NCBI RefSeq assembly: GCF_029869925.1
Contig: NZ_CP118605.1
Span: 1,302,001 to 1,366,000 of the forward strand
Length of the DNA: 64,000 bases
Direction of reading: 5' to 3'
Origin: Microbulbifer bruguierae
GTDB lineage: Bacteria; Pseudomonadota; Gammaproteobacteria; Pseudomonadales; Cellvibrionaceae
Positions 13,670 through 30,681 of the stretch are shown here, piece after piece (within the stretch, counting starts at the first letter, position 1; each line of letters opens with the position of its first letter). The position numbers and the translations under genes are program-made. The notes under the pieces are model-generated. The model saw nothing but the letters and a program-made list of their open reading frames with translations. It did no database searches and was not told the DNA's origin.

Positions 13670-15193
13670 TTGATCACTAAGACCAAAGCCACTCTGCGGC
13701 ACGCTGTTGGCGGTCTACAAACGCGCCTGATCCGGTTGTTGCCCACTCATATCCCCATTGCGTTCAAACTGGCGCTGGTCATGACCCTGCTGCTGGTACT
13801 GGGAATGGCCAGTCTGGGCCTGTTTATCAGCGACAACCAGAACCACCTGATCCGCACCCAATTGCACGACTTCGGCAATACCATGGCGCAGCAGCTGGCA
13901 AAGCAGGCCAGTGAGCCGATCCTGTCGGAAAACAGTCTGAACCTGCGTATGCTGACCGCCAATCTGGATGGCGACCAAAAGGTTCTGGGTGCGGGTGTAT
14001 ACGCGCACGATGGCAAATTACTGTCGGCGACCGGGATTCAGCCCGATCTCTCCGCCCCCCTTCCCGATGTGCCTGAAGTCCTGTCCCGCCCCTGGTTCAG
14101 GCACCGCGCAAACGGATCTCAGGAACGGCTCATCAGCTTTATCGCCCCCGCCAACTACCAGGGCGTCCGGGTCGGCTCGGCTGTGGTAACCCTGTCGGCC
14201 TCGCAAATGGACAAAGCCGCCACCAGGGCCCGCCACGCCATTGTCTACGCCACTCTTGCCATGACTCTGCTGGCATCACTGCTGGCGTATTGGCTGAGCC
14301 GGCGCCTGTCCCTACCCATTCACCGCCTGATGGAGGCCACCCGGGCGATTGACCGCGGCGACCTGGCGACAAGGATCGATCAGCAACGCAACGACGAAAT
14401 CGGCTTTTTATTCGAGGGCTTCAACAATATGGCCGCCGGCCTGCTGAGAAAGTCCCAGGTTGAAGAGGTCTTTTCCCGCTATGTGTCGAAGAGCGTCGCC
14501 GACAAGGTGCTGGCCAACCTCGACGAAGTGCGGCTGGTGGACCGACCGATCGAGGCAACCGTGCTGTTTGCCGACATCACCGGCTTTACCGCGATGTCGG
14601 AAAAGCTGCAACCGAGCCAGGTCTCCGCGCTGCTAAACGAATATTTTTCGTATATTTCCCGAGCCTGTGCGTTGTATGGCGGGGTGGTCGACAAATTTAT
14701 CGGCGACTGTGCAATGCTGGTATTCGGGGTCCTGGAAGACGACAATGACCACGCATTCAACGCCGTCAGCTGCGCAGTATTGATCCAGCAGCTGGCCGCT
14801 CAGTTAAACCAACAGCGCCGCGCTGATGGAAAGCCTGAAGTGCACTTCCGTATTGGTATCAACTCCGGTGCGATGCTGGCCGGCAATCTGGGCTCCGACG
14901 AGCGAATGGAGTTCACGGTGGTTGGCGATGCCGTCAACCTGGCCTCCCGACTGTGTTCCGAAGCCCAGCCGGATCAAATTATCATTCGCCAACAACTGTT
15001 TACCATGCTGGAACCGCGCATCACTGCACAAGCCGAACAAACGCTGCCGATTCGCGGAAAATCGACTCCCGTGATGATCTATTCGGTACAGGATATTCAT
15101 CTGAATTATCATTTGCTGCTGCAAGCCAACCTGAAAAAAATTCTGGATATACCCGTCCGTCAACCGAGTCGACGAGCCATCGAAAATGCCTGA
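13670..15193 (+). CDS. Class III adenylate cyclase, membrane-bound with HAMP
   Basis: Makes cAMP from ATP in response to an unknown signal. The 507 residues run as TM1 (about 31-53), a periplasmic or extracytoplasmic sensor (54-188), TM2 (189-210), HAMP (about 208-262) and a class III cyclase domain (290-480). Catalytic features are present: metal-binding D302 and D346, K342 and D420 as expected for ATP recognition, and N423 and R427 for the transition state (VVGDAVNLASRL). This favours adenylate over guanylate cyclase. The first codon is TTG at 13670 after an AAGAG site; an in-frame stop lies just upstream, and the next ATG falls inside TM1. It overlaps the following lipoprotein gene by 8 bases. 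Confidence 0.92.
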   Translation: MITKTKATLRHAVGGLQTRLIRLLPTHIPIAFKLALVMTLLLVLGMASLGLFISDNQNHLIRTQLHDFGNTMAQQLAKQASEPILSENSLNLRMLTANLDGDQKVLGAGVYAHDGKLLSATGIQPDLSAPLPDVPEVLSRPWFRHRANGSQERLISFIAPANYQGVRVGSAVVTLSASQMDKAATRARHAIVYATLAMTLLASLLAYWLSRRLSLPIHRLMEATRAIDRGDLATRIDQQRNDEIGFLFEGFNNMAAGLLRKSQVEEVFSRYVSKSVADKVLANLDEVRLVDRPIEATVLFADITGFTAMSEKLQPSQVSALLNEYFSYISRACALYGGVVDKFIGDCAMLVFGVLEDDNDHAFNAVSCAVLIQQLAAQLNQQRRADGKPEVHFRIGINSGAMLAGNLGSDERMEFTVVGDAVNLASRLCSEAQPDQIIIRQQLFTMLEPRITAQAEQTLPIRGKSTPVMIYSVQDIHLNYHLLLQANLKKILDIPVRQPSRRAIENA

Positions 15194-16274
15194 TCGCCGG
15201 TTAACACTTGTCTCATTTTTATTTGGCTTATTTCTACTACCGCTATTGCCGGCGTGCAGTCTGATACCAAAGCAACAGATGGCGATGGAAGGTTTTTCAC
15301 CGGAGGCTCTGCGAACACTTCGCCAGCAGTCCGCAGAACTGAAGCGGCTGCAGAAACTGGATACCGCGACGCAGGATCAGCAACAGCAAATCACGCGGTT
15401 ACACACCAGCCTGCAAAAATTCGAGCGGAAAGTAATCCACAGCGCAATCCGCCTCGAAAAACAAAGCGACTGGCATGGGGCCGAACAACTGTTACGGGGC
15501 GCCACTCGGGTATATCCAGACAGCCAGCTGCTGGTCAGCACACAGCGGCAACTGGCAGAGCGCCGTCAATTGCGCGAAGAGCGTGTACGTATGGAGCTGG
15601 CAATCCAGCAGGGCGAGCAGTTGCTGAAGGACGCCGAGGCCTACCAGCAACTGCGGCAACTTCAAGGGCCTGGCCTGCTGAACTGGCTGGAGCTCAAGCA
15701 CCATCTCCGCAAAAGCCGTGAATCCGCGCAGGCACTACAGAAGTATTCTCAGCGCGCGCTGGCGCGGGAGGACTACGTATTGGCCCGGCGCGGCCTGGAG
15801 ATTGCGCAACGCCTGTACAGCGAAGACGCTCAGAAGGATAGCGATCAGCTCGAACAAATCGAACGCGACCTGGCGATGATCAATCGCCAACTTCAACCAC
15901 CGAAACCGCAACCCGTCAGCATTCCCAAAGTCAACGACGACATTACGGTGACGGAATTACAACAGGCTCTGGAAACCGGAGACCTTGTTAGCGCAAGACA
16001 ACATCTCAACCGTTTACAGCAACAATCGCCAGAGCACCCACAATTACTGCCGCTGCAATCCCGGTTTCACATCCAGCTAAATAACCGGGTTCAGGCCGCG
16101 ATCAAGCAGGGCAATGATTTATACAGCCAGGGGAGAATTGAGCCCGCGCTGGAGGTTTGGCGCCAGACCAGAATACTCGCCCCCGACAATATCGAGTTGC
16201 TGGGCAACATCCTCCGCGCGGAAAAAGTGCTGGAAAACCTCAAGGCCCTGTCGATACCTTCCAGTACACCGTAA
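15186..16274 (+). CDS. Lipoprotein with TPR-like helical repeats
   Basis: Not assigned to a named family. The 362-residue product begins with a lipoprotein signal peptide and lipobox LPAC (cysteine 24). Residue 25 is Ser, not Asp, so outer-membrane sorting by Lol is expected. The rest is Gln/Leu/Arg-rich helix; the last 60 residues (AIKQGNDLYSQGRIEPALEVWRQ, quoted in part) read as a tetratricopeptide repeat. Translation is coupled to the cyclase gene by an ATG-TGA overlap of 8 bases, so it may help localise the cyclase or transmit an envelope signal to it. That role is inferred from position only. Confidence 0.85.
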   Translation: MPDRRLTLVSFLFGLFLLPLLPACSLIPKQQMAMEGFSPEALRTLRQQSAELKRLQKLDTATQDQQQQITRLHTSLQKFERKVIHSAIRLEKQSDWHGAEQLLRGATRVYPDSQLLVSTQRQLAERRQLREERVRMELAIQQGEQLLKDAEAYQQLRQLQGPGLLNWLELKHHLRKSRESAQALQKYSQRALAREDYVLARRGLEIAQRLYSEDAQKDSDQLEQIERDLAMINRQLQPPKPQPVSIPKVNDDITVTELQQALETGDLVSARQHLNRLQQQSPEHPQLLPLQSRFHIQLNNRVQAAIKQGNDLYSQGRIEPALEVWRQTRILAPDNIELLGNILRAEKVLENLKALSIPSSTP

Positions 16275-17583: not shown

Positions 17584-19380
17584 TCACCGCGAGGCAAGCC
17601 ATCGCTTCCAGCCACCAAAGGCAGAAATTTCTTCTGCGCCCTCAAGGCCGTAAGGCTCGCAGATAAAGCCACTGACTTCACCGCCCTGCTCCAGCTGCAC
17701 CTTGCCGATGCCGAGCGGCGCGGGAATCCCGGCGACAAAGCTGCCAAACTCTTGCGCAGGTACAGACCACACTTCCACTTCAATCGCGGTCCCCGCAGCT
17801 TCATCCAGCACCAATCCGGGGCGTAGAGGCGGGCCGCCGGCTAACGCATACATCCGGTATATCGGCGCGGTGCGCGTGGCCGACTTCAGTGTTGCGCCCC
17901 GCTCCCGCAATTGCCAGTTGAGCGGTTGACCGTCGAGATGGGCCCCACACACCATCACATCAATATTTTCTCTCGAAGTTGTCACTGTGGCCGCGACAGA
18001 CTGGTGGTGAACCTGATCACGTCCCTGAGGTAACGGAATAAGCCGCTGGATACGATTGGCCATGGTCAACAGCGCGCGATCGGAAAACGCCTTGCCCACC
18101 AGACTGATTCCGAATGGCAGACCGGCGGCAGTAAACGCAGTGGGAACGGCGACAGCGGCAAGATCCAGCAGATTCATGAAGTTGGTGTAATACCCCAGCT
18201 GGCTGTTGTACTGCACCGGCTCCGCCAGCATTTCGTCAATGGTGAACAGTCTTCCCGCCGTTGGGGTCAGCAGACAGTCCAGGGTCTCCAACTGGCCCAG
18301 GCAGTGTTTTCTCAGCTCTTCCAACCGGTACTGAGCGCGGAACAACGCGGTGGCCGCCGGTGACTCTCCTGCTTCAACAATTTTGCGCACCACAGGATGA
18401 ACCGCGTCCGGACTTCGCTTGAGTACTGCCTCCATGGCGATATAACGCTCGCTGACCCAGGGCCCTTCGTAGAGCAGGCGCGCGACTTCATCGAAGGGTT
18501 CGTAGTCGACTTCGATCAACTGAAATCCATCGTCCTCCAGCTTTTCCAGTGTGTCCAAATAGGCCTGTTGGTAGCTCGCATCACCGAAAAAGCTCAGCTG
18601 ACGTTCCGGGATCACCCCGACACGCAGAGTTCCGGTGCGTATGCCAAAATGCCGCGCGCTGTTGGCAAACCGGTTGGCCCGACTGAAGCCATCCTGCGGA
18701 TCTTCCGCCTCGGCAGCAGCAAGTACCTGATTGGCATCGTCGACATTTAGCGCAAACACGCTGACACAATCGAGGCTGCGGCAGGCAGGCACTACGCCTC
18801 GGGTGGATAGCAATCCGCGGGTGGGCTTCAGTCCCACCAAATTATTAAAGCAGGCAGGTATCCTTCCAGAGCCCGCGGTGTCAGTCCCGAGACTGAAACT
18901 CGCGAGGCCAAGTGCCACCGCCACAGCGGAGCCTGAACTGGAACCTCCACTGATATAGTCGGGGTCGAAGGCATTGCGGCAGGCACCGTGAAACGAGCGG
19001 GTGCCGTTCAGGCCCGTGGCAAACTGATCGAGGTTGGTTTTCCCCAATGGAATGGCGCCGGCGGCAATCAACTGTTCCACCACCGGTGCAGAACGCTCAG
19101 GCAGATAGGCGTACGCTTCACATCCGGCCGTCGTGGGTACGCCGGCCAGGTCGATATTATCCTTGATGGCGAAGGGGATGCCCCACAGGGGAAGTTCGTC
19201 CGGAGAGCGCTGTTCGATTTCCTGTAGATACCCTTCCAGCTCCGCTTCGGAGAGCTGATAAATCCAGATATTGTGCTCCGCCTTTTGCCGGGATTTTTCC
19301 AGTATATTTTGGATCAGTACACGCGGGGTCAGTTCGCCGCTGCCGTATGCCTGCTTCAACGCTGCTATATTCATATTCAT
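17584..19380 (-). CDS. atzF: Allophanate hydrolase
   Basis: Splits allophanate into CO2 and ammonia, the last step of carboxylase-dependent urea or guanidine breakdown. The 598-residue protein has an amidase-signature domain with K73 (AIKDN), the Gly/Ser loop GGSSSGSA (145-152) and the probable nucleophile S171 (DTAGSGRIP). It is followed by a C-terminal allophanate-hydrolase domain from about residue 460 (VMVCGAHLDGQPLNWQL). Its ATG shares one base with the carboxylase stop (TGATG). It is the last gene of the riboswitch-headed operon, where it would release two ammonia molecules per allophanate. Confidence 0.93.
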   Translation of the reverse strand: MNMNIAALKQAYGSGELTPRVLIQNILEKSRQKAEHNIWIYQLSEAELEGYLQEIEQRSPDELPLWGIPFAIKDNIDLAGVPTTAGCEAYAYLPERSAPVVEQLIAAGAIPLGKTNLDQFATGLNGTRSFHGACRNAFDPDYISGGSSSGSAVAVALGLASFSLGTDTAGSGRIPACFNNLVGLKPTRGLLSTRGVVPACRSLDCVSVFALNVDDANQVLAAAEAEDPQDGFSRANRFANSARHFGIRTGTLRVGVIPERQLSFFGDASYQQAYLDTLEKLEDDGFQLIEVDYEPFDEVARLLYEGPWVSERYIAMEAVLKRSPDAVHPVVRKIVEAGESPAATALFRAQYRLEELRKHCLGQLETLDCLLTPTAGRLFTIDEMLAEPVQYNSQLGYYTNFMNLLDLAAVAVPTAFTAAGLPFGISLVGKAFSDRALLTMANRIQRLIPLPQGRDQVHHQSVAATVTTSRENIDVMVCGAHLDGQPLNWQLRERGATLKSATRTAPIYRMYALAGGPPLRPGLVLDEAAGTAIEVEVWSVPAQEFGSFVAGIPAPLGIGKVQLEQGGEVSGFICEPYGLEGAEEISAFGGWKRWLASR

Positions 19381-22300
19381 CAGGCAATCTCCCCATATTC
19401 ACGTTCAACGTTATCCAACGCGTGTTCACTCATCGACTCACTTAACGATTCACTTAACGATTCACTTAACAACAGCAACACCTGTCCTGCACTGACACGC
19501 CCTCCTTCAGCCAGCAATACCCGAGTCACCGTGCCCGCCTCTGGCGCCAACACCGGCATTTCCATTTTCATCGACTCAAGCAACATAAGGAGCTCCCCCT
19601 CTTTGACTTGCTGCCCCTCTTTTACCAATACCTTCCACACACTGCCGGATACCGGTGCATCCACCGGGGTCCAGTCTTCCGGCCAGTCCGTCGCAGCCTC
19701 CGCAACCTCCGACTCCTCAACGGAAAAATGGAACTGACCCTGTGCGTGCCAATCTTTCAGCTCCTGCTCGAATGCAGCCTGGCGCCGTTGGCGGAAAGTG
19801 CCGATCTCGTCTGTGGCATCGTCCAACAGGGCGTTGTACTCGGCCAGGCTGAACTCGGTTTCCTCGATCCGCAGGGGATAATTACCCAGAGGAAAATCCC
19901 GGCGAATCTGCTGTAGCTCCTCATGACTCACCTCGTAAAAACGAATCTGGTCGAAGAAGCGCAATAGCCAGGGCTGGCTAAACACCTGGGGCTGCCGATA
20001 ACGATTCCACATCTGCAGCGTACGTCCGACAAATTGATACCCCCCGGGGCCCTCCATGCCGTATACACAGAGATAGGAACCGCCAATACCTACGGAGTTT
20101 TCCGCCGTCCAGGTTCGCGCCGGATTGTATTTGGTGGTTACCAGGCGGTGTGCAGGGTTAACTGGTGTAGCCACCGGCGCGCCCAGGTAAACATCTCCGA
20201 GCCCCATCACCAGATAGGAGGCGTCGAACACTATGTGTTTGACGTCGTCGATGGATTCAAGGCCGTTAATACGGCGAATGAATTCGAGATTACTGGGACA
20301 CCAGGGGGCACCCGCCCGCACCGCGCGATCGTATTTCTCGATCGCCTGGCGGCACGCTTCATCGTCCCAGGACAGAGGTATGTGAACGATGCGCGACGGA
20401 ACGCGCATTTCTTCCAGCTGCTGGGCCAATTCCGTTTCCGCACGCTCCAGATGGGCCAGCAGCGTCTCCTGATCAACCTGCAAACCATCAAAATGTATCT
20501 GTAGGGAACGAATACCTGGAGTCAATTCACGCATGCCTGACAGCGGATTCTGTTGCAGCCAACGCATCAGCGCATGAACGCGGAAACGCAGGCGGATATC
20601 CAGGACCTTCTCTCCGTATTCCACCAGCAGAAAATGATCGCCAGCGGCGCGGTACACAATCTCATCGCCAAACCTGCCTGCGCCGAAGGTTTTCAGAATT
20701 GGGGTTACCGGTGCTACCGACGCCCAGCTCTGATCAACCACCGTCAGACCCGCGATCTGATCTCGCTGCGCCCGCTCCAGCGCCCGCGCGTCCTGCGGCG
20801 ATACCGGTACAAACCGCAAGCTGTCTCCGGCTTTCAACTGTCCGAGCTTCCACAGATCCGCCTGAATCACCGTCGCGGGACACACGAAGCCACCAAGGGA
20901 AGGGCCGTCCGGGCCGAGAATCACCGGCATATCGCCCGTAAAGTCCACCGTACCAAAGGCGTAGGCGTTGTCGTGAATATTGGAAGGATGCAGGCCAGCC
21001 TCGCCGCCATCCTGACGCGCCCAGTCGGGCTTCGGGCCAATCAGGCGCACGCCGGTGCGGCTGGAGTTGTAATGCACTTTCCATTCGCTGGCGAAAAAAG
21101 TGTCGATATCCTTATCGGTAAAAAAATCCGGCGCTCCGTGAGGGCCGTAAATCACCCGCAATTCCCACTGGCTGGAGATTTCCGGGCGCAGTGCTTCCGG
21201 CACCTCCGTGCCCGTCCCCACCGGGACCTCGCGTTCCCGCAAATGCAGAACGTCGCCAGTACGCAATGCGCGTCCATTGTGGCCGCCAAACTGACCGAGA
21301 GTGAATGTGGAGCGGGATCCGAGATAAGCCGGACAATCAAACCCGCCCTGTACAAGCAGGTAAGTACGGGCACCTGCTTCACGAATGCGCCCACATTCCA
21401 GTACCTGACCTGCACGCACAGAAATCACCTGCCACAACGGAACCGGTATTTTATCCAGCGCAGGGGCGCAGTCGGCACCGGTAATCACTACCCGGCTATC
21501 GCAACTGAATCTGAGCGATGGCCCCTGCAGGGTAATTTCCAGTCCCGATGCATCCTCGTCATTGCCCAGTAATCGGTTGCCGAGGCGGAACGAATAGTTG
21601 TCGAACGGACCGGAAGGGGGGACCCCGATATGCCAGTAGCCCGCACGCCCCGGGTAATCCTGCACAGTGGTCTGTGTTCCCGGTTGCAATACGTCCACCC
21701 GCGCAGGGTGCCAACTGAAATCGTTCAGATAGCGGGTAGTGACTTCGCCGGCGACCAGTTTTTCGTCCTGCAATAGTGCGCGGAGATACGACAGGTTGGT
21801 CTCAGACCCGTAGAGACGTATTTCTCCGAGGACAGCGCGCAGCTTCTCCAGTGCCGCCGCCCTGCTCGCTGCCAGCACGATCACCTTGGCCAGCATGGGA
21901 TCAAAATAGGGAGATACTTCGATACCCGCCTCTATCCAGTGGTCGATACGAACACCTTCGTACTGAGGGAATTGCACTTCCGTCAGCAAGTCGGCACAGG
22001 GCTGGAAATCCCGATAGGGATCTTCTGCGTAAATACGCACCTGAATACTGTGGCCCGAGGACTGCAATTTTGCACGTCGCTGAAACAGGTCTGCCACCTC
22101 GCCCGCGGCCAGACGCAGCATCCACTCCACCAGATCAATTCCATAGACTTCCTCGGTCACCCCGTGTTCTACCTGAAGGCGGGTGTTCACTTCGAGGAAA
22201 TAAAACTGGCCGGTATCCGCGTCGTAAATGAACTCCACCGTGCCCGCATTGCGATACTTAATGCTGGCAACCAGCTTTTCCGCCGTGGCATACAGCTCGC

Positions 22301-23054
22301 GGCGGACTTCGTCGGTCAACCCCGGCGCAGGGCATTCTTCCACTACTTTCTGATTGCGACGCTGAGACGAGCAGTCGCGTTCGCCAATAGCCAGCGCCCC
22401 ACCGCAGCCGTCACCGAATACCTGTACCTCGATATGGCGTGCGCGATCGATAAATTTTTCGATGAATACACCATCATCGGAAAAATTGTTCGCGCCCAGG
22501 CGCTTCACGGATTCGAAGGCATCGGTCAGGTCTGACTCCATCCGACACACCTGCATACCGATACCGCCGCCGCCAGCGGTACTCTTCAGCATCACCGGGT
22601 AACCGGTAAACCCAGCCTGCCGCTTGGCTGCGTCCAGGCTTTCCAGCAGATCACTGCCTTCCAGCAGTGGCACACCGGCTCGTCGGGCCAGATCCCGCGC
22701 GCGGTGTTTCAATCCAAAGATCTCGATTTGCTCAGCCGTCGGCCCCACAAAGACAATGCCTTCACGTTCACAACGTCGCACAAACGTGGCATTTTCACTG
22801 AGAAAACCATAACCGGGATGAATGGCCGTAGCGCCGGACTCCCGCGCAATGGCAAACAGTTTATCTATATTGAGATAGGTATCCGATGCTGCGCCACTAC
22901 CCAATGGCCAGGCTTCATCGGCCGCGCGCACGTGCAGGCTCTCCGCATCCGATTCTGCGTAAACCGCCACCGAACCGATACCCATTTTTTTCAGGGTGCG
23001 AATGATACGCACGGCAATAGCGCCGCGATTGGCAATCAGAACTTTGCTAAACAT
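19380..23054 (-). CDS. Biotin-dependent guanidine/urea carboxylase
   Basis: ATP- and biotin-dependent carboxylase annotated in relatives as urea carboxylase. Since the operon is headed by a guanidine-I riboswitch, the physiological substrate is probably guanidine, giving carboxyguanidine. The 1224 residues run as biotin carboxylase with ATP-grasp (1-450, e.g. STAGGGGIGMQ), a KipI/KipA-like carboxyltransferase region (about 460-1050), and a biotinyl domain with the ESMKME motif whose acceptor is K1163. The last 30 residues are an unusual SESL-repeat tail. A good AGGA site precedes the ATG. It shares one base with the allophanate hydrolase gene. Urea as the true substrate is not excluded by sequence reading. 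Confidence 0.92.
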   Translation of the reverse strand: MFSKVLIANRGAIAVRIIRTLKKMGIGSVAVYAESDAESLHVRAADEAWPLGSGAASDTYLNIDKLFAIARESGATAIHPGYGFLSENATFVRRCEREGIVFVGPTAEQIEIFGLKHRARDLARRAGVPLLEGSDLLESLDAAKRQAGFTGYPVMLKSTAGGGGIGMQVCRMESDLTDAFESVKRLGANNFSDDGVFIEKFIDRARHIEVQVFGDGCGGALAIGERDCSSQRRNQKVVEECPAPGLTDEVRRELYATAEKLVASIKYRNAGTVEFIYDADTGQFYFLEVNTRLQVEHGVTEEVYGIDLVEWMLRLAAGEVADLFQRRAKLQSSGHSIQVRIYAEDPYRDFQPCADLLTEVQFPQYEGVRIDHWIEAGIEVSPYFDPMLAKVIVLAASRAAALEKLRAVLGEIRLYGSETNLSYLRALLQDEKLVAGEVTTRYLNDFSWHPARVDVLQPGTQTTVQDYPGRAGYWHIGVPPSGPFDNYSFRLGNRLLGNDEDASGLEITLQGPSLRFSCDSRVVITGADCAPALDKIPVPLWQVISVRAGQVLECGRIREAGARTYLLVQGGFDCPAYLGSRSTFTLGQFGGHNGRALRTGDVLHLREREVPVGTGTEVPEALRPEISSQWELRVIYGPHGAPDFFTDKDIDTFFASEWKVHYNSSRTGVRLIGPKPDWARQDGGEAGLHPSNIHDNAYAFGTVDFTGDMPVILGPDGPSLGGFVCPATVIQADLWKLGQLKAGDSLRFVPVSPQDARALERAQRDQIAGLTVVDQSWASVAPVTPILKTFGAGRFGDEIVYRAAGDHFLLVEYGEKVLDIRLRFRVHALMRWLQQNPLSGMRELTPGIRSLQIHFDGLQVDQETLLAHLERAETELAQQLEEMRVPSRIVHIPLSWDDEACRQAIEKYDRAVRAGAPWCPSNLEFIRRINGLESIDDVKHIVFDASYLVMGLGDVYLGAPVATPVNPAHRLVTTKYNPARTWTAENSVGIGGSYLCVYGMEGPGGYQFVGRTLQMWNRYRQPQVFSQPWLLRFFDQIRFYEVSHEELQQIRRDFPLGNYPLRIEETEFSLAEYNALLDDATDEIGTFRQRRQAAFEQELKDWHAQGQFHFSVEESEVAEAATDWPEDWTPVDAPVSGSVWKVLVKEGQQVKEGELLMLLESMKMEMPVLAPEAGTVTRVLLAEGGRVSAGQVLLLLSESLSESLSESMSEHALDNVEREYGEIA
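19434..19469 (-). repeat. Three 12-base tandem repeats inside the carboxylase gene
   Basis: Three consecutive 12-mers (CGACTCACTTAA, then CGATTCACTTAA twice on the plus strand) encode a repeated Ser-Glu-Ser-Leu peptide. They sit after the biotinyl domain, near the very C-terminus of the carboxylase. Because 12 is a multiple of 3, unit gain or loss would keep the frame, so copy number may vary between strains without inactivating the gene. Confidence 0.85.
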
Positions 23055-23149
23055 TTTGCGTCCTGCCCGGGCCGTCCCGGTGTGAAGTGCGACAGTGGCC
23101 GTCCACTGAAGTTTTTGAAAATTTCGCTAGGAAGACGACAGCTCAAGCA

Positions 23150-23791
23150 CTATTGGTCCCAGATCAGTACTGCGACCGGGGTAGGATTGTAACCATTACA
23201 GGGGTTGTTCAATTGCGGGCAATTGGAAATCAGCACGATCACGTCCATACATGCACGCATCTCCACATATTTTCCCGGTGCGGAAATGCCATCCGCAAAC
23301 GTCAGTCCACCGGCTTCCGTCACCGGTACATTCATGAAGAAATTGATATTGTGGGAGATATCTCGCTTGTCGAGTCCGTATTCCGGGTGCTCGGCAATGG
23401 CCAGCATCCAGCTATCCCGACAGGCGTGCATACAGCGTTTTTCCAGTGCGTAACGCACGGTATTACTTTCGGTCGCGCAGGCGCCACCTAGAGTATCGTG
23501 ACGTCCGCAGGTATCGGCAATGATCTCCAGCATGGGATTATTTTCATTGGAGCGCAGCACACTGCCCGCAGTGAGGTATACATTACCCTGCTCGCGAATT
23601 GTATCCATCGCAGAGTATCGTTCACCGGGGTCTTCAGCGTTGAAAAACAGGGTGTCCGCGGCCTGGTTACCTTCCAGGTCTAGAATACGAATAACCTGGC
23701 CTTTTTTTAATGTGTGTAGGAAGTAGTCGCCGGCAGCGACCATTTCCCGGAAATCCACTGCCTTATCGTCGTATTGGGATTCGGTAATCAT
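23150..23791 (-). CDS. DUF1989 protein, UAAP2-type; probable carboxyguanidine deiminase subunit
   Basis: One of two DUF1989 proteins historically called urea-carboxylase-associated proteins. Published work on such pairs (CgdA/CgdB) showed that together they deiminate carboxyguanidine to allophanate plus ammonia, bridging the carboxylase and the hydrolase. The 213-residue product has family wording such as [21 protein letters not shown] (shown in part), a conserved cysteine segment ([12 protein letters not shown]) and [13 protein letters not shown]. The start at 23791 follows a GAGAGAAG site; the frame is open upstream to 23902, but that part overlaps the neighbouring gene and looks non-coding. 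It lies 34 bases behind the other DUF1989 gene. Confidence 0.88.
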
Positions 23792-23825
23792 GAATTGCTT
23801 CTCTCTTGTTCTGCTAACCGGAAGC

Positions 23826-24542
23826 TCAGGTGCCGAGATGATAGAGCGCGTTGTTTTGGAAACCCCGCTGGTTTTCTTCGCACCAGTTGCGGCAAACGTC
23901 ATCTGATGCTATCGGTGCAGCGAGACCGAGCTCCACCTGTATTGGCAGTGCTGGATAGCTGTCAGCCTGACTCAGGGGATGTGGGCAGGAATGGAGAATG
24001 ACCAGAGTGTCCATCTCAAACCGCAACACCACCCGATCGCCGGCACGGGCGGTGGTGTCATCCAGATAAAGATTGCCCTCCTTATCCGTGGCGACCTTGC
24101 TGAACCAGTTGACGTTTGCCGCCAGATCCTGGCGATTGAGACCGTACTTTTCCATCTCCACCAGGAACGCGTCGTGACCATTCTGGAACCACCCATTGCG
24201 ATGGTGCTGATAGTCGCGTGCTCCCCATTTTTCGGCAATGTGTGAATAGCGGGTGTTACCACATACTGTGTCGTGCCAACCATGGTCATCTTCGATGATC
24301 GAAGCGAATATCCTCCCCATGTCGGAGTAGAGACAATTGCCCCGGGACAGGCGAAAGGTGTGCTGACATTTCAGTGTATCCGGTGCGTTATAGCGCTCAA
24401 GCAGGTTTTCAGGATTGTAAAACAGCATACCTGCATTGCCCCCTCCGTGCAGATCCGTCAGGCGCAGCTGGGTGCCTCGACGCATGCGGAACGACCAGTG
24501 CCCCCCCCCGGGAATTTCGGTGCTGTACTGGTATTCATTCAT
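23826..24542 (-). CDS. DUF1989 protein, UAAP1-type; probable carboxyguanidine deiminase subunit
   Basis: Partner of the preceding DUF1989 protein; the two are expected to form a heteromeric deiminase acting between carboxylase and allophanate hydrolase. The 238 residues open with the family motif [21 protein letters not shown] (given in part) and contain [13 protein letters not shown], whose His and Cys resemble the DUF1989 metal-binding set. The gene overlaps the ATPase gene by 8 bases, so uptake and catabolic genes form one transcript. Assignment of the names CgdA and CgdB to the two genes was not attempted. Confidence 0.88.
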
Positions 24543-25392
24543 TGATCAGTTCCTGCTTTTTGCTTTTGGTGCCGGGCTTTTTCAGATCACTGATTTCGGT
24601 TGGAAACATATCCACTGCATCCAGACGGATCGCCTCTTCGGCGATATCACTCTCGATTTTCCGGTAAAGATCGCCATCGGTTTTCCCTACAGGCAAATCG
24701 TAGGTAATGGATGCTCCGTAGCGCCCCGGTGCGTGTGGATCCTGACGAACTTTGTCAAACACCCACAAGCGAGTACCGAGATAAAATCCCTCCTGCAGGT
24801 CGTGAGTGACCATAAATACGGTTAGGGCGTTTTCCCGCCAAAGTTGCAATACGAGTTTGTGCACATCCGCGCGTATACCGGGATCGAGGGCACCGAAGGG
24901 CTCATCCAGCAATAGAATACGCGGGCGATTGATGAGTGCCTGGGCGATGGCGAGACGCTGCTTCATACCGCCCGAAAGCATATGCGGATATTTATCCAGA
25001 GTGTGCTGTAATCCCACGCGCTCCAGTAGCTCAAGCGCTTTTTTACGCGCATCTCTTTTTGCCGCACCAAAAAGTAACCCGGTGATTCCCGGACGGGACA
25101 TGGCGCAGGCAGCGATCACATTGTCGAGCACAGACATATGGGGAAAAACCGAGTACTGCTGAAATACGATACCGCGGTCCGGGCCCGGCTCGTCAGGAAT
25201 AGTCTTACCGTCCAGCAACAACTGCCCGCGAGTGGGTTTTTCCGTACCCAGTAGCATTTTCAGAAAGGTACTTTTACCACAACCGGAACTGCCCACCATG
25301 GTGACGAACTCACCCTCTGAAACAGTGTTGTTCAGTCCTTCCAGCACCTGGGTATCGCCGTAACTCTTCCAGACGTTGTTCAATTCAATCAC
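24535..25392 (-). CDS. ABC transporter ATPase, probable guanidine importer
   Basis: ATPase of a nitrate/taurine-type importer. In 285 residues it shows Walker A GSSGCGKST, signature LSGGMKQR, Walker B ILLLDEPFGALD and switch VTHDLQEG, with a C-terminal extension of about 60 residues (MFPTEISDLKKPGTKSKKQ). It overlaps the permease gene by 4 bases and the DUF1989 gene by 8 bases. The guanidine substrate is inferred from the riboswitch and the co-transcribed catabolic enzymes; relatives are labelled urea-carboxylase-associated or taurine transporters. Confidence 0.9.
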   Translation of the reverse strand: MIELNNVWKSYGDTQVLEGLNNTVSEGEFVTMVGSSGCGKSTFLKMLLGTEKPTRGQLLLDGKTIPDEPGPDRGIVFQQYSVFPHMSVLDNVIAACAMSRPGITGLLFGAAKRDARKKALELLERVGLQHTLDKYPHMLSGGMKQRLAIAQALINRPRILLLDEPFGALDPGIRADVHKLVLQLWRENALTVFMVTHDLQEGFYLGTRLWVFDKVRQDPHAPGRYGASITYDLPVGKTDGDLYRKIESDIAEEAIRLDAVDMFPTEISDLKKPGTKSKKQELINE

Positions 25393-26210
25393 GCCGCACC
25401 TCCCGGCAAGTACCAGGGAAACAGTTTTTTATTCATCACGCGCAGGGCATAGTCCAATAGAAATGCCAACAACGTTATCCAGGCTACATAAGGCAGAATC
25501 ACGTCCATTGACAGATAACGGCGAACCAGAAAGATGCGATAGCCAAGGCCATCGGTCGAAGCGATGGCTTCGGACGAGATCAGAAATAACCAGGCCGCAC
25601 CCAGTGCGAGGCGCACGGATTCTGTCAGCCGCGGTAATAATTGCGGCAGAATTACCCGGGATAGAATCTGAGTACTATTGGCACCGAGTGTCTGGGCTTT
25701 GACCAGCTGCTCGAAGGGGATTTCTCCCGTACGTTGCAGCATGTCGCGGGCAATAAACGGGGTAATACCGATAGCGATCAACGCCACCTTGGAAATCTCC
25801 CCCAACCCGAAAACGATAAACAGGATTGGCAACAAGGCCAGAGGTGGTACTAGTGAAATCACCGTCAGTAGAGGCGATACCGAAGCGCCAACCAGGGGAA
25901 TGGCGCCGGTGAACATTCCCAGTAGCAAACCAATGGTCGCCGCGATCAGTACCCCAAGACCCAGGCGCTTCAGGCTGCTCACCGTATCCTGCCAGAAAAT
26001 GATCTTGCCGGTGCGTTTACTGGGCTCTGCCGCCATTCGATGTACCGCATCACCCATTTGGGAAAACGAAGGTAGCAGCTTGTCTTTTTCGTTTTCTGCC
26101 AACCTCGCCTGTGAGCCCGCCATATAAATCATCAGGATCAACAAAAACGGCAGCAGACCCAGAAACAGCGCGCCGCTTTTGCCAGGCTTCAGATTTATCA
26201 GGCGTTTCAT
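25389..26210 (-). CDS. ABC transporter permease, probable guanidine importer
   Basis: Inner-membrane channel of 273 residues with one BPD_transp_1 domain and about six helices. The EAA-type cytoplasmic loop is visible (LVKAQTLGANSTQILSRVILPQ, given in part). It belongs to the SsuC/TauC branch. It lies between the binding-protein gene (60 bases upstream) and the ATPase gene (4-base overlap). Confidence 0.9.
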   Translation of the reverse strand: MKRLINLKPGKSGALFLGLLPFLLILMIYMAGSQARLAENEKDKLLPSFSQMGDAVHRMAAEPSKRTGKIIFWQDTVSSLKRLGLGVLIAATIGLLLGMFTGAIPLVGASVSPLLTVISLVPPLALLPILFIVFGLGEISKVALIAIGITPFIARDMLQRTGEIPFEQLVKAQTLGANSTQILSRVILPQLLPRLTESVRLALGAAWLFLISSEAIASTDGLGYRIFLVRRYLSMDVILPYVAWITLLAFLLDYALRVMNKKLFPWYLPGGAA

Positions 26211-26270
26211 CGGGCTTCTCTCATCATCACGTTATCTTCCAGATTGTCGCAACGCTACTGCCAAAACACA

Positions 26271-27311
26271 TCAAAGCTTGTCATCGGCCGCCAACTGCAT
26301 ATAGGTGGGATCGAAACGAAATTTGATATTGGTTTCGTCACCGTAAGTGCCTGCAGGCATTTCGATACCGACAAACTCGGCACTGGGTACACCGTTGCCC
26401 AGAAGGCCGTGATCGAAGGAGAACTCTGCAACACTTTTCATCGACGCAAGCAACTTCTCACTGTTAGTGAGTGTCAGTGCTTGTGCAGGGGTGTAGAACA
26501 TTTCAGTACTGGCCAACTGCGCTTCATAGCCGGCCAGATCGGTGCCCGAGGCGGTGGCCATATGCGTTTTTGCTGCAGAGGAGGCGTCTTGCTCACCGGA
26601 CATCAATTCCATGATTTCATACCAGGCGCCTACTAAGGCCTTGCCCAGTGCCGGTGTGGATTTCAGGGTTTCGGTGTTCACCACCAGCAGGTCGATAATT
26701 TCGCCGGGAATTTTTGAAGAATCGAACACCGTCTGACTTTCGGGCATGGCCTCAATCTCGCCGAGCAACGGATTCCAGGTAGCAACCGCAGTGACGCCAT
26801 CGGTACCGTAGGCGGCGACCATGTCTGCGTCTGAAGTATTCACGACGGTGATATCTGCTTCACTCAGACCGACGGACTCCAGCCCACGCGCCAACAGGTA
26901 GTGGGAAACACTGAGCTCCACCAGATTGACACTCTGTCCTTTTATTTCCGCGAGATCCTTGCCGCCTTTCAATACGATGCCATCATTGCCGTTGGAGAAA
27001 TCTCCGACAATCAGTGCGGTACTGTCGACACCACCAGCGGCGGGAATCGTCAGCGCATCCATATTGGTCATGGTGCAGGCATCGAACTCACCCATGGTGT
27101 ATTGATTTACAGACTCGATATAGTCGTTTATCTGTACGACTTCGATATCAATCCCGTATTTATCGCCCCATTTTTTGACAATGCCCTGTTCGGCACCATA
27201 GGACCACGGCATCCAGCCAACATAGATAGACCAACAGACCTTGAAGCTTTCTTTCGCGCAGGCTGCAGAAGAGAGTGTGAGGGTAAAAAGTAGAATGGCG
27301 AGACGCTGCAT
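26271..27311 (-). CDS. ABC transporter substrate-binding protein, probable guanidine binder
   Basis: Periplasmic receptor of the importer: 346 residues with a Sec signal peptide cleaved near AACA-KES and an NMT1/TauA-like fold (CWSIYVGWMPWSYGAEQGI near the mature N-terminus). Aromatic and acidic residues early in the mature chain would suit a small cation such as guanidinium, but this is inference. It is the first gene after the riboswitch, and its ATG follows a strong GGAGG ribosome site. Being first makes it the most direct target of riboswitch control. Confidence 0.9.
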   Translation of the reverse strand: MQRLAILLFTLTLSSAACAKESFKVCWSIYVGWMPWSYGAEQGIVKKWGDKYGIDIEVVQINDYIESVNQYTMGEFDACTMTNMDALTIPAAGGVDSTALIVGDFSNGNDGIVLKGGKDLAEIKGQSVNLVELSVSHYLLARGLESVGLSEADITVVNTSDADMVAAYGTDGVTAVATWNPLLGEIEAMPESQTVFDSSKIPGEIIDLLVVNTETLKSTPALGKALVGAWYEIMELMSGEQDASSAAKTHMATASGTDLAGYEAQLASTEMFYTPAQALTLTNSEKLLASMKSVAEFSFDHGLLGNGVPSAEFVGIEMPAGTYGDETNIKFRFDPTYMQLAADDKL

Positions 27312-27430
27312 CGCAGACCTCCAGTGTTTTCCGGTTTATATTCCAGGTTCACAGCAGTCGCAGCATTTCAGCTTCAATGGCGCTTGCTATTTGGGTTACG
27401 CAGAGAGCTCTTGGCAACGCTAACGCGCCA

Positions 27431-27579
27431 AACAGGTCTCCCGGGCTTTTATCCCGCCGTGTAACCCCTCTGGAAATCGGACTGGAGATTCCAATCGATC
27501 AGCCAAACAGGTCGGATGCTCTCGGACCAGACATCAAGGAAAGCAACGTTTCATTGACCGGAACCCTAGCGTCCTATTG
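27431..27579 (-). promoter_or_regulatory. Guanidine-I riboswitch (ykkC aptamer)
   Basis: Read on the minus strand, the aptamer's conserved segments occur in order: CTAGGGTTCCGG (27570-27559), CTGGTCCGAGAG, ACACGGCGGGATAAAAG, and GCCCGGGAGA ending near 27437. The flanks AATAGG (27579-27574) and CCTGTT (27436-27431) can pair to close the P1 helix. This is the class that senses free guanidinium and turns genes on. It lies about 120 bases upstream of the binding-protein start and so controls the whole seven-gene operon. No clear terminator hairpin with a U-run is seen between aptamer and ATG, so the switching mechanism is not evident. Confidence 0.93.
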
Positions 27580-27618
27580 AACAGATTGTCTCAATGGCAC
27601 TAATGCCAAGAGTCTTGC

Positions 27619-27795: not shown

Positions 27796-29475
27796 CTAAA
27801 TCATGCTCCACTGACCACTGTAAGCCGCGAATAAAAATACAACGAGATTCGTCACAGCATGCGCTGTAATAGCATCGCCGATATGTTGAGAACGCAAACG
27901 CACAAATGCATAGACAAGCCCGGCAACCGTGCCTGCTACCCAGGCATCATGCATCGCACCAAAGGTAAGTGAAGATACCAGTACCGCCACTCCCGACAGA
28001 GCCAATCTCCCGCGGGTATAGCTGGACGAGCGGCTGAGCTTGCACAACAAGTAACCCCGAAAGGCCAGTTCCTCTGCAATTGGTACAGCGATTACCGCCC
28101 CTAAAAAACGAAACAACAACCACAAACCAGACCAAAGCACGGGTGCGTCCAGCAGGTTTTCAGTAAATATCCGATCGGTTTGTGGTGCGGAGTTAAACAA
28201 CATCACTATCCAGATCAGGGCAACGCCAATGCCACAACCAAATGCGAGCAGATTCGGGCGATATGGTACCAGGCGCAGTGTTGGGAAAACCCAGATGAGA
28301 GCAAGCAGTACCGCAATCACTCGCAATGGATACAGCCAAACGAATTCGGACGATATTGCTGATGTCACCAATACCGTTCCAAGTAACACGATCAAAGGCA
28401 TGAGTGTCGCAACAGCCTGCTCGCTGTTATCAGGAGACCTGGATACCGGTGAACCGAGCTGCACCATTCCCGAGTTGCCCGCATTTGGCTTCGCCACAAA
28501 ACTCCATCGACCAGCAAACCACAAGAGCGCCAATGAGGTCACGATAAATGCAATCCACCCGGCCTGAGAGTGAAAGCCACCTATGGCGACATCCGCAGAC
28601 CAGTGATAGCCCAAGGCAACCAACGCGGTAATCCGCACCACATTCAACAACCATATAATCGAAATCCCCAGGGGAAACAGGATGAAAGCGCGGGGAAAGC
28701 GAAACTCTTTAAAGTTGATATACATGTACAGTGAAAGAAACGCCGTAATCAATCCAATACCTTCATAACCAGAACAGGCTGGCGCCACACTGACAATAAA
28801 GTCGCCCAGACCAAGTATTTTCTGACCAGGTTCCACCACTACCAGCTCGGGATTAAATAGGGTCAGCAGATTTGAGCTCAGGAGGAACGTCAAGGTACTC
28901 AGCGGCGTCCAGAGGCGGTTCGCCCAGGCAGTAAAAAGCCAGACTATTACCGAGATTAGCGCTGCGGCAAGCACGCGCTTGCGATAACGCGCCAGGATTT
29001 CCAGCCAAAACCGTATAGGTGCCGACATAAGAGTCCAACACAACAGGCACGCCGAAAGTTCAACGCACCAAAGCAGAAATTCAGATAAGGCTGCTTGATT
29101 TCCATCACTGGCGTCATCAAAAATCACGGCAGAACTCTGCAGGAAAAACCAGTAACTTAATATTTGTGGCAGAAAATATATACCAGCGCGTTTGACATTG
29201 GCTTCAAACTGAATAATTTTCCACAACGTGCGCAATTCCCGCTGCAGTAATACACACAGAATCACAAGAAACAGCACAGCAATTTTGGCAACCTGCCCCA
29301 TATAGCCAAAGGATATACGCCACCCCTGAGCGGCACCGTCCATCACCAGGGTGTAAGCATCAAAGCGCTGGCTGATATAGAGTAGCTGGAGCACCAGCAG
29401 CAACGCTATCCCCGCCTGCAATACAGCCCTAGGATGTATTGGTAAATAAAGACGTTCCCTGGCGAAATTATCCAA
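27796..29475 (-). CDS. xrtE: Exosortase fused to CPBP-family protease (XrtE-type, VPEID-CTERM system)
   Basis: Membrane transpeptidase-like enzyme expected to cut C-terminal sorting tails of exported proteins. The exosortase half carries the catalytic Cys (APACSGYEG, C234), Arg (NVVRI, R281) and His (GGFHSQAGW, H302), within about eight helices. The C-terminal half is a CPBP/CAAX-type glutamic protease domain with EELAFRG (E468-E469), FGAMH (H509) and HAVTN (H539). This fusion defines the described exosortase E class. The frame is open to a TTG at 29535, but its first 15 codons encode an intrinsic terminator, so the TTG at 29475 (GGAA upstream) is preferred; the start is uncertain. The probable substrate is encoded next door at 29543-29860. 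Confidence 0.9.
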   Translation of the reverse strand: MDNFARERLYLPIHPRAVLQAGIALLLVLQLLYISQRFDAYTLVMDGAAQGWRISFGYMGQVAKIAVLFLVILCVLLQRELRTLWKIIQFEANVKRAGIYFLPQILSYWFFLQSSAVIFDDASDGNQAALSEFLLWCVELSACLLCWTLMSAPIRFWLEILARYRKRVLAAALISVIVWLFTAWANRLWTPLSTLTFLLSSNLLTLFNPELVVVEPGQKILGLGDFIVSVAPACSGYEGIGLITAFLSLYMYINFKEFRFPRAFILFPLGISIIWLLNVVRITALVALGYHWSADVAIGGFHSQAGWIAFIVTSLALLWFAGRWSFVAKPNAGNSGMVQLGSPVSRSPDNSEQAVATLMPLIVLLGTVLVTSAISSEFVWLYPLRVIAVLLALIWVFPTLRLVPYRPNLLAFGCGIGVALIWIVMLFNSAPQTDRIFTENLLDAPVLWSGLWLLFRFLGAVIAVPIAEELAFRGYLLCKLSRSSSYTRGRLALSGVAVLVSSLTFGAMHDAWVAGTVAGLVYAFVRLRSQHIGDAITAHAVTNLVVFLFAAYSGQWSMI

Positions 29476-29490
29476 ATCACTATTCCATTC

Positions 29491-29520
29491 AAAAAAAAAC
29501 CCCGGTGCGAAAACCGGGGC
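29491..29520 (-). terminator. Intrinsic terminator between sorted protein and exosortase genes
   Basis: On the minus strand a 7-base-pair GC stem (CCCCGGT/ACCGGGG, 29519-29513 with 29506-29500) with loop TTTCGC is followed by nine T residues (29499-29491). It lies 23 bases after the stop of the small APEID protein gene. It would end most transcripts there, limiting the read-through that reaches the exosortase gene. It also falls inside the longest possible exosortase frame, which argues against the TTG start at 29535. Confidence 0.85.
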
Positions 29521-29542
29521 TCTTACATCATTCAACTAAAAA

Positions 29543-29860
29543 TCAACATTTTTTTGACGCACGTCTTTCACGACGAACAGCAACCAACCCCGCGAGTAAT
29601 GCGAACGCAATACCTGCCCCGGCAACATCAATTTCCGGAGCAGCATGCATTTTTTTGTCTCCGTCATACTTACCACTCGGGGAAGATCCGTGGCGGCTAG
29701 CAGACTTAGCACCACCATTGTGCTTATTGCCATCATGTTGCTTATAGCTATCATGACTGCCAACAATATCACGGTGCTTGCCACCGTTCCCACCGTCAGC
29801 TAACGCTAAAGGTGAAGAAAGCATCAACACCGCCAAACTGGCATATACATACTTTTTCAT
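29543..29860 (-). CDS. Secreted protein with VPEID-CTERM-like sorting tail
   Basis: Probable substrate of the adjacent exosortase. The 105 residues have a Sec signal peptide (cleavage near LALA-DGG, residue 21), a short mature region of about 52 residues rich in Gly, His, Lys, Asp and Ser (hydrophilic and probably unstructured), then APEID (74-78), a hydrophobic helix (79-95) and the basic tail RRERRASKKC. The motif reads A-PEID where the described family has V-PEID. The His/Lys/Asp-rich core could bind metal ions or polysaccharide, but no enzyme domain is present. It is followed by a strong terminator, fitting a product made in larger amounts than the enzyme. Confidence 0.88.
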   Translation of the reverse strand: MKKYVYASLAVLMLSSPLALADGGNGGKHRDIVGSHDSYKQHDGNKHNGGAKSASRHGSSPSGKYDGDKKMHAAPEIDVAGAGIAFALLAGLVAVRRERRASKKC

Positions 29861-30309
29861 TGATTTGGTCCAAGTAAATACCGCTGCTTCTCAGCGAGCA
29901 TCCATTCAAATTCTGATCCACAATACGAATCAGTGTCCATTTTCAGCATCCTGCGTGCTACTCAAACATTCTTTATATTTATCAACATCTATGAAAGGGA
30001 ATAAGTCCCGCTCAAATAGATCGCTCTACAATTAACTGCAAAGTTTAAAGGGGCGCCTGTAACCATGGCGGTCGTACGGCCTTTAAATCAGGCCCCCAAA
30101 ATGAGAGGTCAGACATTCGCCCAGGCCATAAACGTGACACACCCCCAAAAAAGATGTGACCCAGTTAATACCGCTGAGCGTATCGGCAGATTAAATGCCA
30201 TTTTTGTCCAAGTCCAGTAGCTATGATCCCGGGTAATTATTCAACAGCAAAAATAGGCGTCGAATTCTACTTTGATCGCACGCGCCCTGCCGAAATTTTT
30301 CCCGAAAAC
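29861..30309. other. Intergenic region upstream of the sorted-protein gene
   Basis: This AT-richer gap of about 450 bases must hold the minus-strand promoter of the APEID protein. One weak candidate is TTGCAG with TATTTG 17 bases later, near 30000-30040 on the minus strand. Its base composition differs from the GC-rich neighbours. No gene, tRNA or terminator was recognised. It borders the decayed segment to the right and may include DNA left by rearrangement. Confidence 0.45.
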
Positions 30310-30681
30310 TCAGATTAACGCGGGCTGGGGAATCAAAGGAGGAAATTCCCGCCGAAGCAAGAAGGGACGGATTACTCTGGCTCCAGACTCACGAGTGGCC
30401 AGGTGAAGTAACAAAAGGTCCACGTGGTCAACATCAAGTTTCTTCAGACTCTCCTCAACAGACGGCAGGAAGTCATCCTTGCCAAATTCTGTCGTCCAAT
30501 CCTTGGCCATATGTGATATCTCATCCCGCGGGATACCGGATACCTTGATAGCCGCACCAGCCGCGGCTTCGTTACCATAAATTTGAGCGGTATCGATGTG
30601 GCGAAAACCGAGTTTCAGCGCTTCCGGTAGTACCTCAGCAACTTCCTTGTCAGATAAAAGGTAAGTACCAATCCCGAGCAC
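30310..30681 (-). pseudogene. Aldo/keto reductase remnant (frameshifted)
   Basis: N-terminal part of an AKR5-type aldo/keto reductase (2,5-diketogluconate reductase-like). Residues 1-96 match the family: LGIGTYLL, HIDTAQIYGNE, a lysine segment and LKKLDVDHVDLLLLH, so the tetrad Asp, Tyr, Lys and His positions survive. Directly after LLLLH the frame is lost. Skipping one C near base 30401 restores WPLVSLEPE, the expected continuation, before a TAA at 30374-30372. The remaining two thirds of the enzyme are missing. The 5' end is also doubtful: family-like residues extend upstream of the GTG at 30681 to an in-frame TAG. It is surely non-functional. Confidence 0.85.

Follow-up and report, generated by a model that had tools for sequence, protein, structure and literature searches.

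We confirm, at the level of sequence, that the 64-kb window (the whole stretch of DNA analysed here), which comes from a marine bacterium, carries an exosortase E gene next to the gene for its putative substrate. Both genes lie on the minus strand where the original prediction had placed them, and the family to which they belong had already been named. We consider it very probable that this cassette is a dedicated exosortase-E (XrtE) sorting system, with one substrate and one enzyme that work as in the mechanism proposed below. The sequence evidence for this reading consists of the gene pair itself, the intact catalytic sets, the tripartite signal, the exclusivity of the pair in its genome, its co-occurrence in the genus and a terminator that is kept in the genus.

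Our model begins with the substrate: its signal peptide would direct export, and its C-terminal helix would keep it in the inner membrane with the basic tail on the inner side. The enzyme's exosortase half (Cys234-Arg281-His302) may then cut at or near the PEID motif on the outer face, and the new C-terminus would be passed to an acceptor, most likely a lipid amine, by analogy with the proposal for archaeosortase A. The fused CPBP half may either remove the leftover helix or share in the cut. The product would be a peptide of ~53 residues, rich in His, Gly, Lys and Asp, that is anchored in the envelope or released. Last, the terminator between the two genes would let only some transcripts reach the enzyme gene, giving much substrate and little enzyme. 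In this model we infer export, the cut site, lipid transfer, the role of the CPBP half, the expression ratio and every chemical step.

To our knowledge, the reaction of bacterial exosortases has not yet been reconstituted. The value of the cassette is experimental, as an isolated one-to-one pair of one enzyme and one 105-residue target. Because no other exosortase or target was found in the genome, a knock-out or a two-gene transfer should give a single clean readout. The pair also illustrates that XrtE sorting pairs can be self-contained, easily lost and cargo-light.

The exosortase E/protease fusion

The enzyme gene (27796..29475, minus strand) encodes an exosortase E/CPBP protease fusion of the XrtE type, 559 residues long. 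It scored 229.8 bits against TIGR04162 (230.2 bits in the genome search), whose cut-off is 150; the alignment covered model positions 104-516 of 516, with the first ~100 positions unmatched. It also scored above the cut-offs of PF09721 (51.5 bits) and PF02517 (57.7 bits, cut-off 22.4). Its 41.4 bits against NF033192 lay under the cut-off of 75, which places it outside MrtJ/JDVT-CTERM by that model. The enzyme resembles TIGR04162 exosortase E/proteases in joining the two halves in a single chain, in having both catalytic sets and in scoring far over the cut-off, and we found no difference of kind. The XrtE-type fusion, with a Cys-Arg-His set and a CPBP set in one chain, had thus been recognized correctly. 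The enzyme had also been called compact, and here the prediction failed: its length is ordinary, since the TIGR04162 model has 516 positions and the ten nearest database relatives, among 120 listed of 3245, have 537-557 residues. The nearest named relative among those listed is from Microbulbifer sp. SA54.

The start of the gene is likely the TTG at 29475, as in database entry P0001, and by inspection we saw no in-frame ATG near it. The mechanical open reading frame (27796-29535, minus strand) has 579 codons from its first TTG, and its opening ~15 codons overlap the terminator at 29495-29524.

Both catalytic sets are intact. The exosortase residues, which are catalytic in the exosortase family, lie within 28570..28776 (minus strand) and are C234 (28774-28776), R281 (28633-28635) and H302 (28570-28572) in P0001 numbering. 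In the C-terminal half, the CPBP pattern of EExxxR, His and HxxxN is complete (E468/E469/R473, H509, H539 and N543; 27847..28074, minus strand). All nine residues were invariant in an alignment of 42 sequences, the window enzyme included, drawn from the 120 listed of 3245 relatives. When we searched GTDB genome contigs with the enzyme we found 174 relatives, some sharing a genome, and kept the best 80 as loci (872 kb). Among these best 80 of 174, the exosortase Cys-Arg-His set was present in 80 of 80 and the full nine-residue set in 76; two of the four exceptions (L100 and L123) end at contig edges. As for the other two, L083 has no CPBP set in the frame that was read, away from the contig ends, and L118 has a Leu at the 539 position (the His of HxxxN) and yet three targets. 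Decay, a frameshift or a misalignment may explain each.

The conservation of two catalytic sets bears on which half makes the cut. It is possible, but rather unlikely, that the sorting cut is made by the CPBP half, in the manner of a myxosortase, and that the exosortase half only recognizes the signal or transfers the product. According to PMC11980579, in which the CPBP family name is spelled out, MrtX is a CPBP enzyme that lacks an exosortase domain, and MYXO-CTERM proteins are cleaved by it in both Myxococcus and E. coli; moreover, the CPBP residues of XrtE are conserved almost as strictly as the exosortase residues. However, MrtX is described as requiring an invariant Cys in its target (PMC11980579), and XrtE-target sorting signals have no conserved Cys in either of our alignments. 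These are A2 (32 targets plus the window target) and A3 (one target per locus, 50 plus the window target, without L066, L077, L083, L109, L111, L112, L125, L126 and L127). The invariance of the exosortase Cys-Arg-His set also argues against a CPBP cut, and we favour cleavage by the exosortase half.

In VIA-align, the C-terminal half of the predicted model aligned with the SpdC and Rce1 structures at modest Z, and for the N-terminal half no trusted match was listed. Searched with the enzyme model, Foldseek found nothing in the PDB at E<=0.001, and a profile search of the PDB sequences was empty even at E<=1; by these two tests, therefore, the exosortase half has no solved relative.

The substrate and its transcript

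In the direction of transcription, the substrate gene (29543..29860, minus strand) comes first, just upstream of the enzyme gene, and the terminator lies between them. The 105-residue product is the sole match of the tripartite scan in the window and agrees with its earlier description as a small secreted protein that ends in APEID, a helix and a basic tail. Residues 1-21 (29798..29860, minus strand) form the signal peptide predicted by a simple AxA rule. They are followed by a cargo of 53 residues (29639..29797, minus strand), 81% of which are Gly, His, Asp, Lys, Arg, Glu, Asn, Ser or Gln, and by the C-terminal sorting signal (29546..29638, minus strand), made of PEID (29627-29638), the helix and the tail RRERRASKKC. 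The P and E of the motif were invariant in the 51 aligned signals of A3, which had themselves been chosen for that motif.

The system had been assigned to VPEID-CTERM, and this was borne out for the enzyme, which passes TIGR04162, and, by the curated cut-off, not for the substrate. In its position beside an XrtE gene, and in the motif-helix-basic-tail plan at the C-terminus of a predicted secreted protein, the window target is like TIGR04161 VPEID-CTERM proteins; unlike them, it falls below 33 bits. The whole protein reached 13.8 bits, for a cut-off of 33, and was not among the matches at E<=1; it is therefore not a member by that rule. The isolated signal reached 15.8 bits, still under the cut-off. 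TIGR04161 matched 22 of 33 targets taken whole (E<=1) and, among 51 signals taken in isolation, 39 (E<=0.1), the window's included; the M. aggregans target scored 14.3 bits. Among ten XrtE-adjacent targets (of 81) scanned singly, only L089 met the cut-off. As nine of the ten are excluded, annotation pipelines will leave many XrtE enzymes without a partner, and a broader model such as A3 might match many of them to their targets. A literature search for the term 'VPEID-CTERM' found no paper. The isolated window signal also scored 16.8 bits against the MYXO-CTERM-type model TIGR03382 (cut-off 15.85), and the whole protein scored 13.9, below that cut-off.

Sequence search found almost no relatives of the substrate. 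Among 5.8 billion proteins, it returned only the substrate itself and P0122 at E<=1, from 19 word-sharing candidates; we found the other relatives through the enzyme neighbourhood.

The strong intrinsic terminator (29495..29524, minus strand) consists of a GC stem and a T run that extends to ~29486. It follows the target gene in all three intact Microbulbifer loci (G000, G019 and G061), with its position unchanged in G019 and G061, and is still readable in the G017 remnant. In a wider set of 58 target-enzyme gaps (55 loci from the best 80 of 174, plus G000, G061 and the G017 remnant), 26 contained a terminator, some of them weak or distant, compared with 5.8 expected from dinucleotide shuffles; 32 had none.

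The mRNA leader (29861..29912, minus strand) is ~52 nt long and forms an 11-pair hairpin directly before the substrate start, which is kept in three of three intact Microbulbifer loci. Three one-sided changes retain G-U pairs, a single sequence has one broken pair, and two-sided changes are absent. Three sequences with these changes are too small a sample to establish an RNA element. When a covariance model of the leader was run on 34 sources, its strong matches were its three source loci only (four copies, one genome twice), and one further row (L072) had an E-value of 0.81. A role as a regulator shared with other lineages is thus unsupported by these 34 sources, none of which gave a further significant match.

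Pairing of enzyme and target across genomes

Our searches of the window's genome found no second exosortase. P-E-I-D codon sites occur 36 times in this genome; we translated all of them, and a helix, a basic tail and a stop follow only one, the substrate itself. The A3 profile likewise had one match in the genome at E<=0.1. The proposal of one enzyme with one adjacent substrate therefore holds for this genome, where each is the sole one found.

The pairing extends to relatives. In the best 80 of 174 loci (872 kb), a scan for PE[ILVM][DNS]-helix-basic-tail-stop found 81 proteins, all on the strand of the enzyme: 69 lie within 1 kb upstream of it (55 loci), eight farther upstream and four downstream. 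Single targets occur in 46 loci, two in six, three in five and four in two, and 21 loci have none. Seventeen of the target-less loci have at least 1 kb upstream, and when we read their tails by eye seven carried PEFD or PEIG forms (L062, L067, L074, L086, L091, L095 and L113) and ten did not. The same scan gave exactly one match in the 64-kb window and none in control DNA of the same genus (477 kb). This control DNA was made up of 44 stretches beside guaA and, from the own genome, 29 stretches around other PEID sites, without L129, L141, L145, L146 and L021, which are cassette or remnant loci.

Within Microbulbifer, the full enzyme occurs in three of 48 genomes (G000, G019 and G061), and the remaining rows were short CPBP-end matches only. 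Targets were found at E<1e-10 in the same three genomes and no other, and enzyme and target are adjacent in all three. Two of the three targets had been in the profile, so only the G061 target is independent of it; what counts, as far as sequence searches go, is the absence of a target from the other 45 genomes. Two of the 48 genomes are less than 90% complete.

All three pairs sit between guaA (GMP synthase) and the gene for a conserved protein of ~363 residues, which has no Pfam match at E<=1e-8 and lies at 15186-16274 in the window. At the same site, G017 (L141, ~2400-2710 reading away from guaA) has an N-terminal fragment of the enzyme with a stop codon and, beside it, what looks like a degraded target. 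In ten of the 48 genomes (G063, G058, G008, G025, G031, G028, G066, G068, G013 and G030) the site is empty, with the flanking genes at most ~270 bases apart. The ~363-residue gene is farther off in five genomes and was not found in the stretch taken in 29, two of those stretches being short. In a one-gene tree of guaA, genomes with an occupied, a decayed or an empty site are intermingled within one part of the genus. We read this pattern as a cassette that is probably old and has been lost several times in the genus. Repeated gain within the genus is possible as well, and the support of 41-71 on the branches near the window's leaves the order of loss and gain unfixed.

These data also bear on whether the substrate is processed at all, which is predicted from sequence. 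The small protein might be a plain membrane-anchored secreted protein whose gene neighbours the enzyme gene by descent, and its near-orphan status in sequence searches is consistent with that. We consider this very improbable, because the two genes are present in the same three of 48 genomes and seem to decay together in G017, because 69 of the 81 targets lie within 1 kb upstream of XrtE with none in control DNA, and because the sorting signal is kept while the cargo drifts. Among the three Microbulbifer targets, identity is 25-27 of 29 positions in the sorting signal, 14-17 of 21 in the signal peptide and 15-17 of 39 aligned positions in the cargo. A sorted substrate remains the reading that we prefer.

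The expectation that no polysaccharide genes lie nearby was upheld within the part of the window that was scanned: we saw none among the matches of 39 of its other open reading frames (ten scanned with NCBIfam and 29 with Pfam at E<=1e-8), some of which had no match. Of the neighbours with a match, the nearest are an uptake operon and metabolic genes, with no exporter. In the window, this guanidine operon and a transporter gene separate the enzyme from the ~363-residue gene. The operon is headed by a Guanidine-I riboswitch (27436-27580, 75.8 bits) and contains an ABC transporter, UAAP1/UAAP2, a urea (probably guanidine) carboxylase and an allophanate hydrolase; the whole unit (17584-27580, minus strand) stands between the enzyme and the ~363-residue gene, which in G019 and G061 borders the cassette. 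On the other side, between guaA and the cassette and beside an SDR gene, lies an apparently truncated aldo-keto reductase (30310-30681, minus strand) that covers positions 6-104 of the 267-position DkgB model and may be debris at a variable site.

Cargo, product and related systems

Two features of the substrate that had been singled out proved to be ordinary. Across 82 targets (81 from the best 80 of 174 loci, plus the window's), the residue before PE is V in 52, A in 22, I in three, T in three, L in one and G in one. The window's alanine does precede PEID, as noted earlier, and is common. The motif itself is PEID in 44 targets, PEMS in 19, PELD in eight, PEMD in five, PEIN in five and PELS in one. 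The mature part had been put at only about 52 residues; the predicted cut gives 53, which is long rather than short, as the median cargo is 23.5 residues in the 80 targets with a predicted cut. The window's cargo length falls in the upper fifth of family lengths. Thus, neither the alanine nor the cargo length is special to the window. Two of the 82 targets have no predicted cut, and a few predictions are plainly in error (L087 at 0 and L102 at 1). In Microbulbifer, the cargo keeps its kind, with 81-91% Gly, His, Asp, Lys, Arg, Glu, Asn, Ser and Gln and five to seven His.

In many members the cargo is minimal, and the question becomes what the real product is. It has at most 12 residues in 33 of the 80 targets, with two such cuts visibly wrong and many of the targets being tandem paralogues of Marinicaulis-type loci; by our own count, 19 loci among the best 80 of 174 have at least one target of this kind. 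As many relatives in many lineages have only 4-12 residues between the predicted signal-peptide cut and the motif, two cuts would leave a short peptide. We therefore raise, as a speculation that we ourselves think unlikely, that XrtE cassettes mainly make short, C-terminally modified peptides, probably lipid-bearing gene-encoded lipopeptides, rather than sort surface proteins. If this is true, XrtE pairs are self-contained two-gene lipopeptide cassettes, and the 53-residue peptide of the window is a long-cargo member of the class.

Bacteriocin-processing and immunity proteins are members of the CPBP family. A peptide toxin or bacteriocin served by its own maturation or immunity protein would suit a small, predicted secreted peptide with fast-changing cargo and a patchy distribution with decay, and we nevertheless find it most unlikely, since the cargo is, by inspection, of low complexity (Gly, His and charged residues) and neither amphipathic nor Cys-rich, some relatives have merely 4-8 cargo residues and the nearest matched neighbours include no exporter.

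Archaeosortase A is not known to carry a CPBP half. In Haloferax, this enzyme has been proposed to cleave its targets through a Cys thioester and then to transfer them to a lipid amine (PMC7157517); like XrtE, it is a Cys enzyme of the exosortase superfamily with a tripartite target and a proposed lipid transfer, and unlike the window enzyme it has several targets, with a PGF motif. The nearest precedent for the layout that we have seen is in the two-gene MrtJ/JDVT-CTERM neighbourhoods mentioned in PMC11980579, which also pair a dedicated enzyme gene, for a CPBP-type protease, with its target gene; in contrast, MrtJ and MrtX as presented there have no exosortase half, and the MYXO-CTERM targets have an invariant Cys (PMC11980579). 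Rhombosortase and its single GlyGly-CTERM target are usually adjacent, a pairing termed a dedicated system in PMC3237569; unlike XrtE, rhombosortase is an unrelated rhomboid serine protease with another motif (PMC3237569). The pair also differs from the exopolysaccharide-linked PEP-CTERM/EpsH sorting systems, since the window's genome has no match to TIGR02595 (PEP-CTERM targets) at E<=1 and no polysaccharide cluster was seen among the scanned reading frames. A methanotroph study that describes mutations in two exosortase genes (PMC5874918) has no bearing on the XrtE cassette.

Some loci carry tandem arrays. In L093, L097, L099, L115, L118, L120 and L121, which are Marinicaulis loci and another alphaproteobacterial locus, up to four tiny targets of 54-78 residues with PEMS or PEMD motifs stand in a row, and in L093, L115, L118 and L121 one longer member of each array has two Cys in its cargo.
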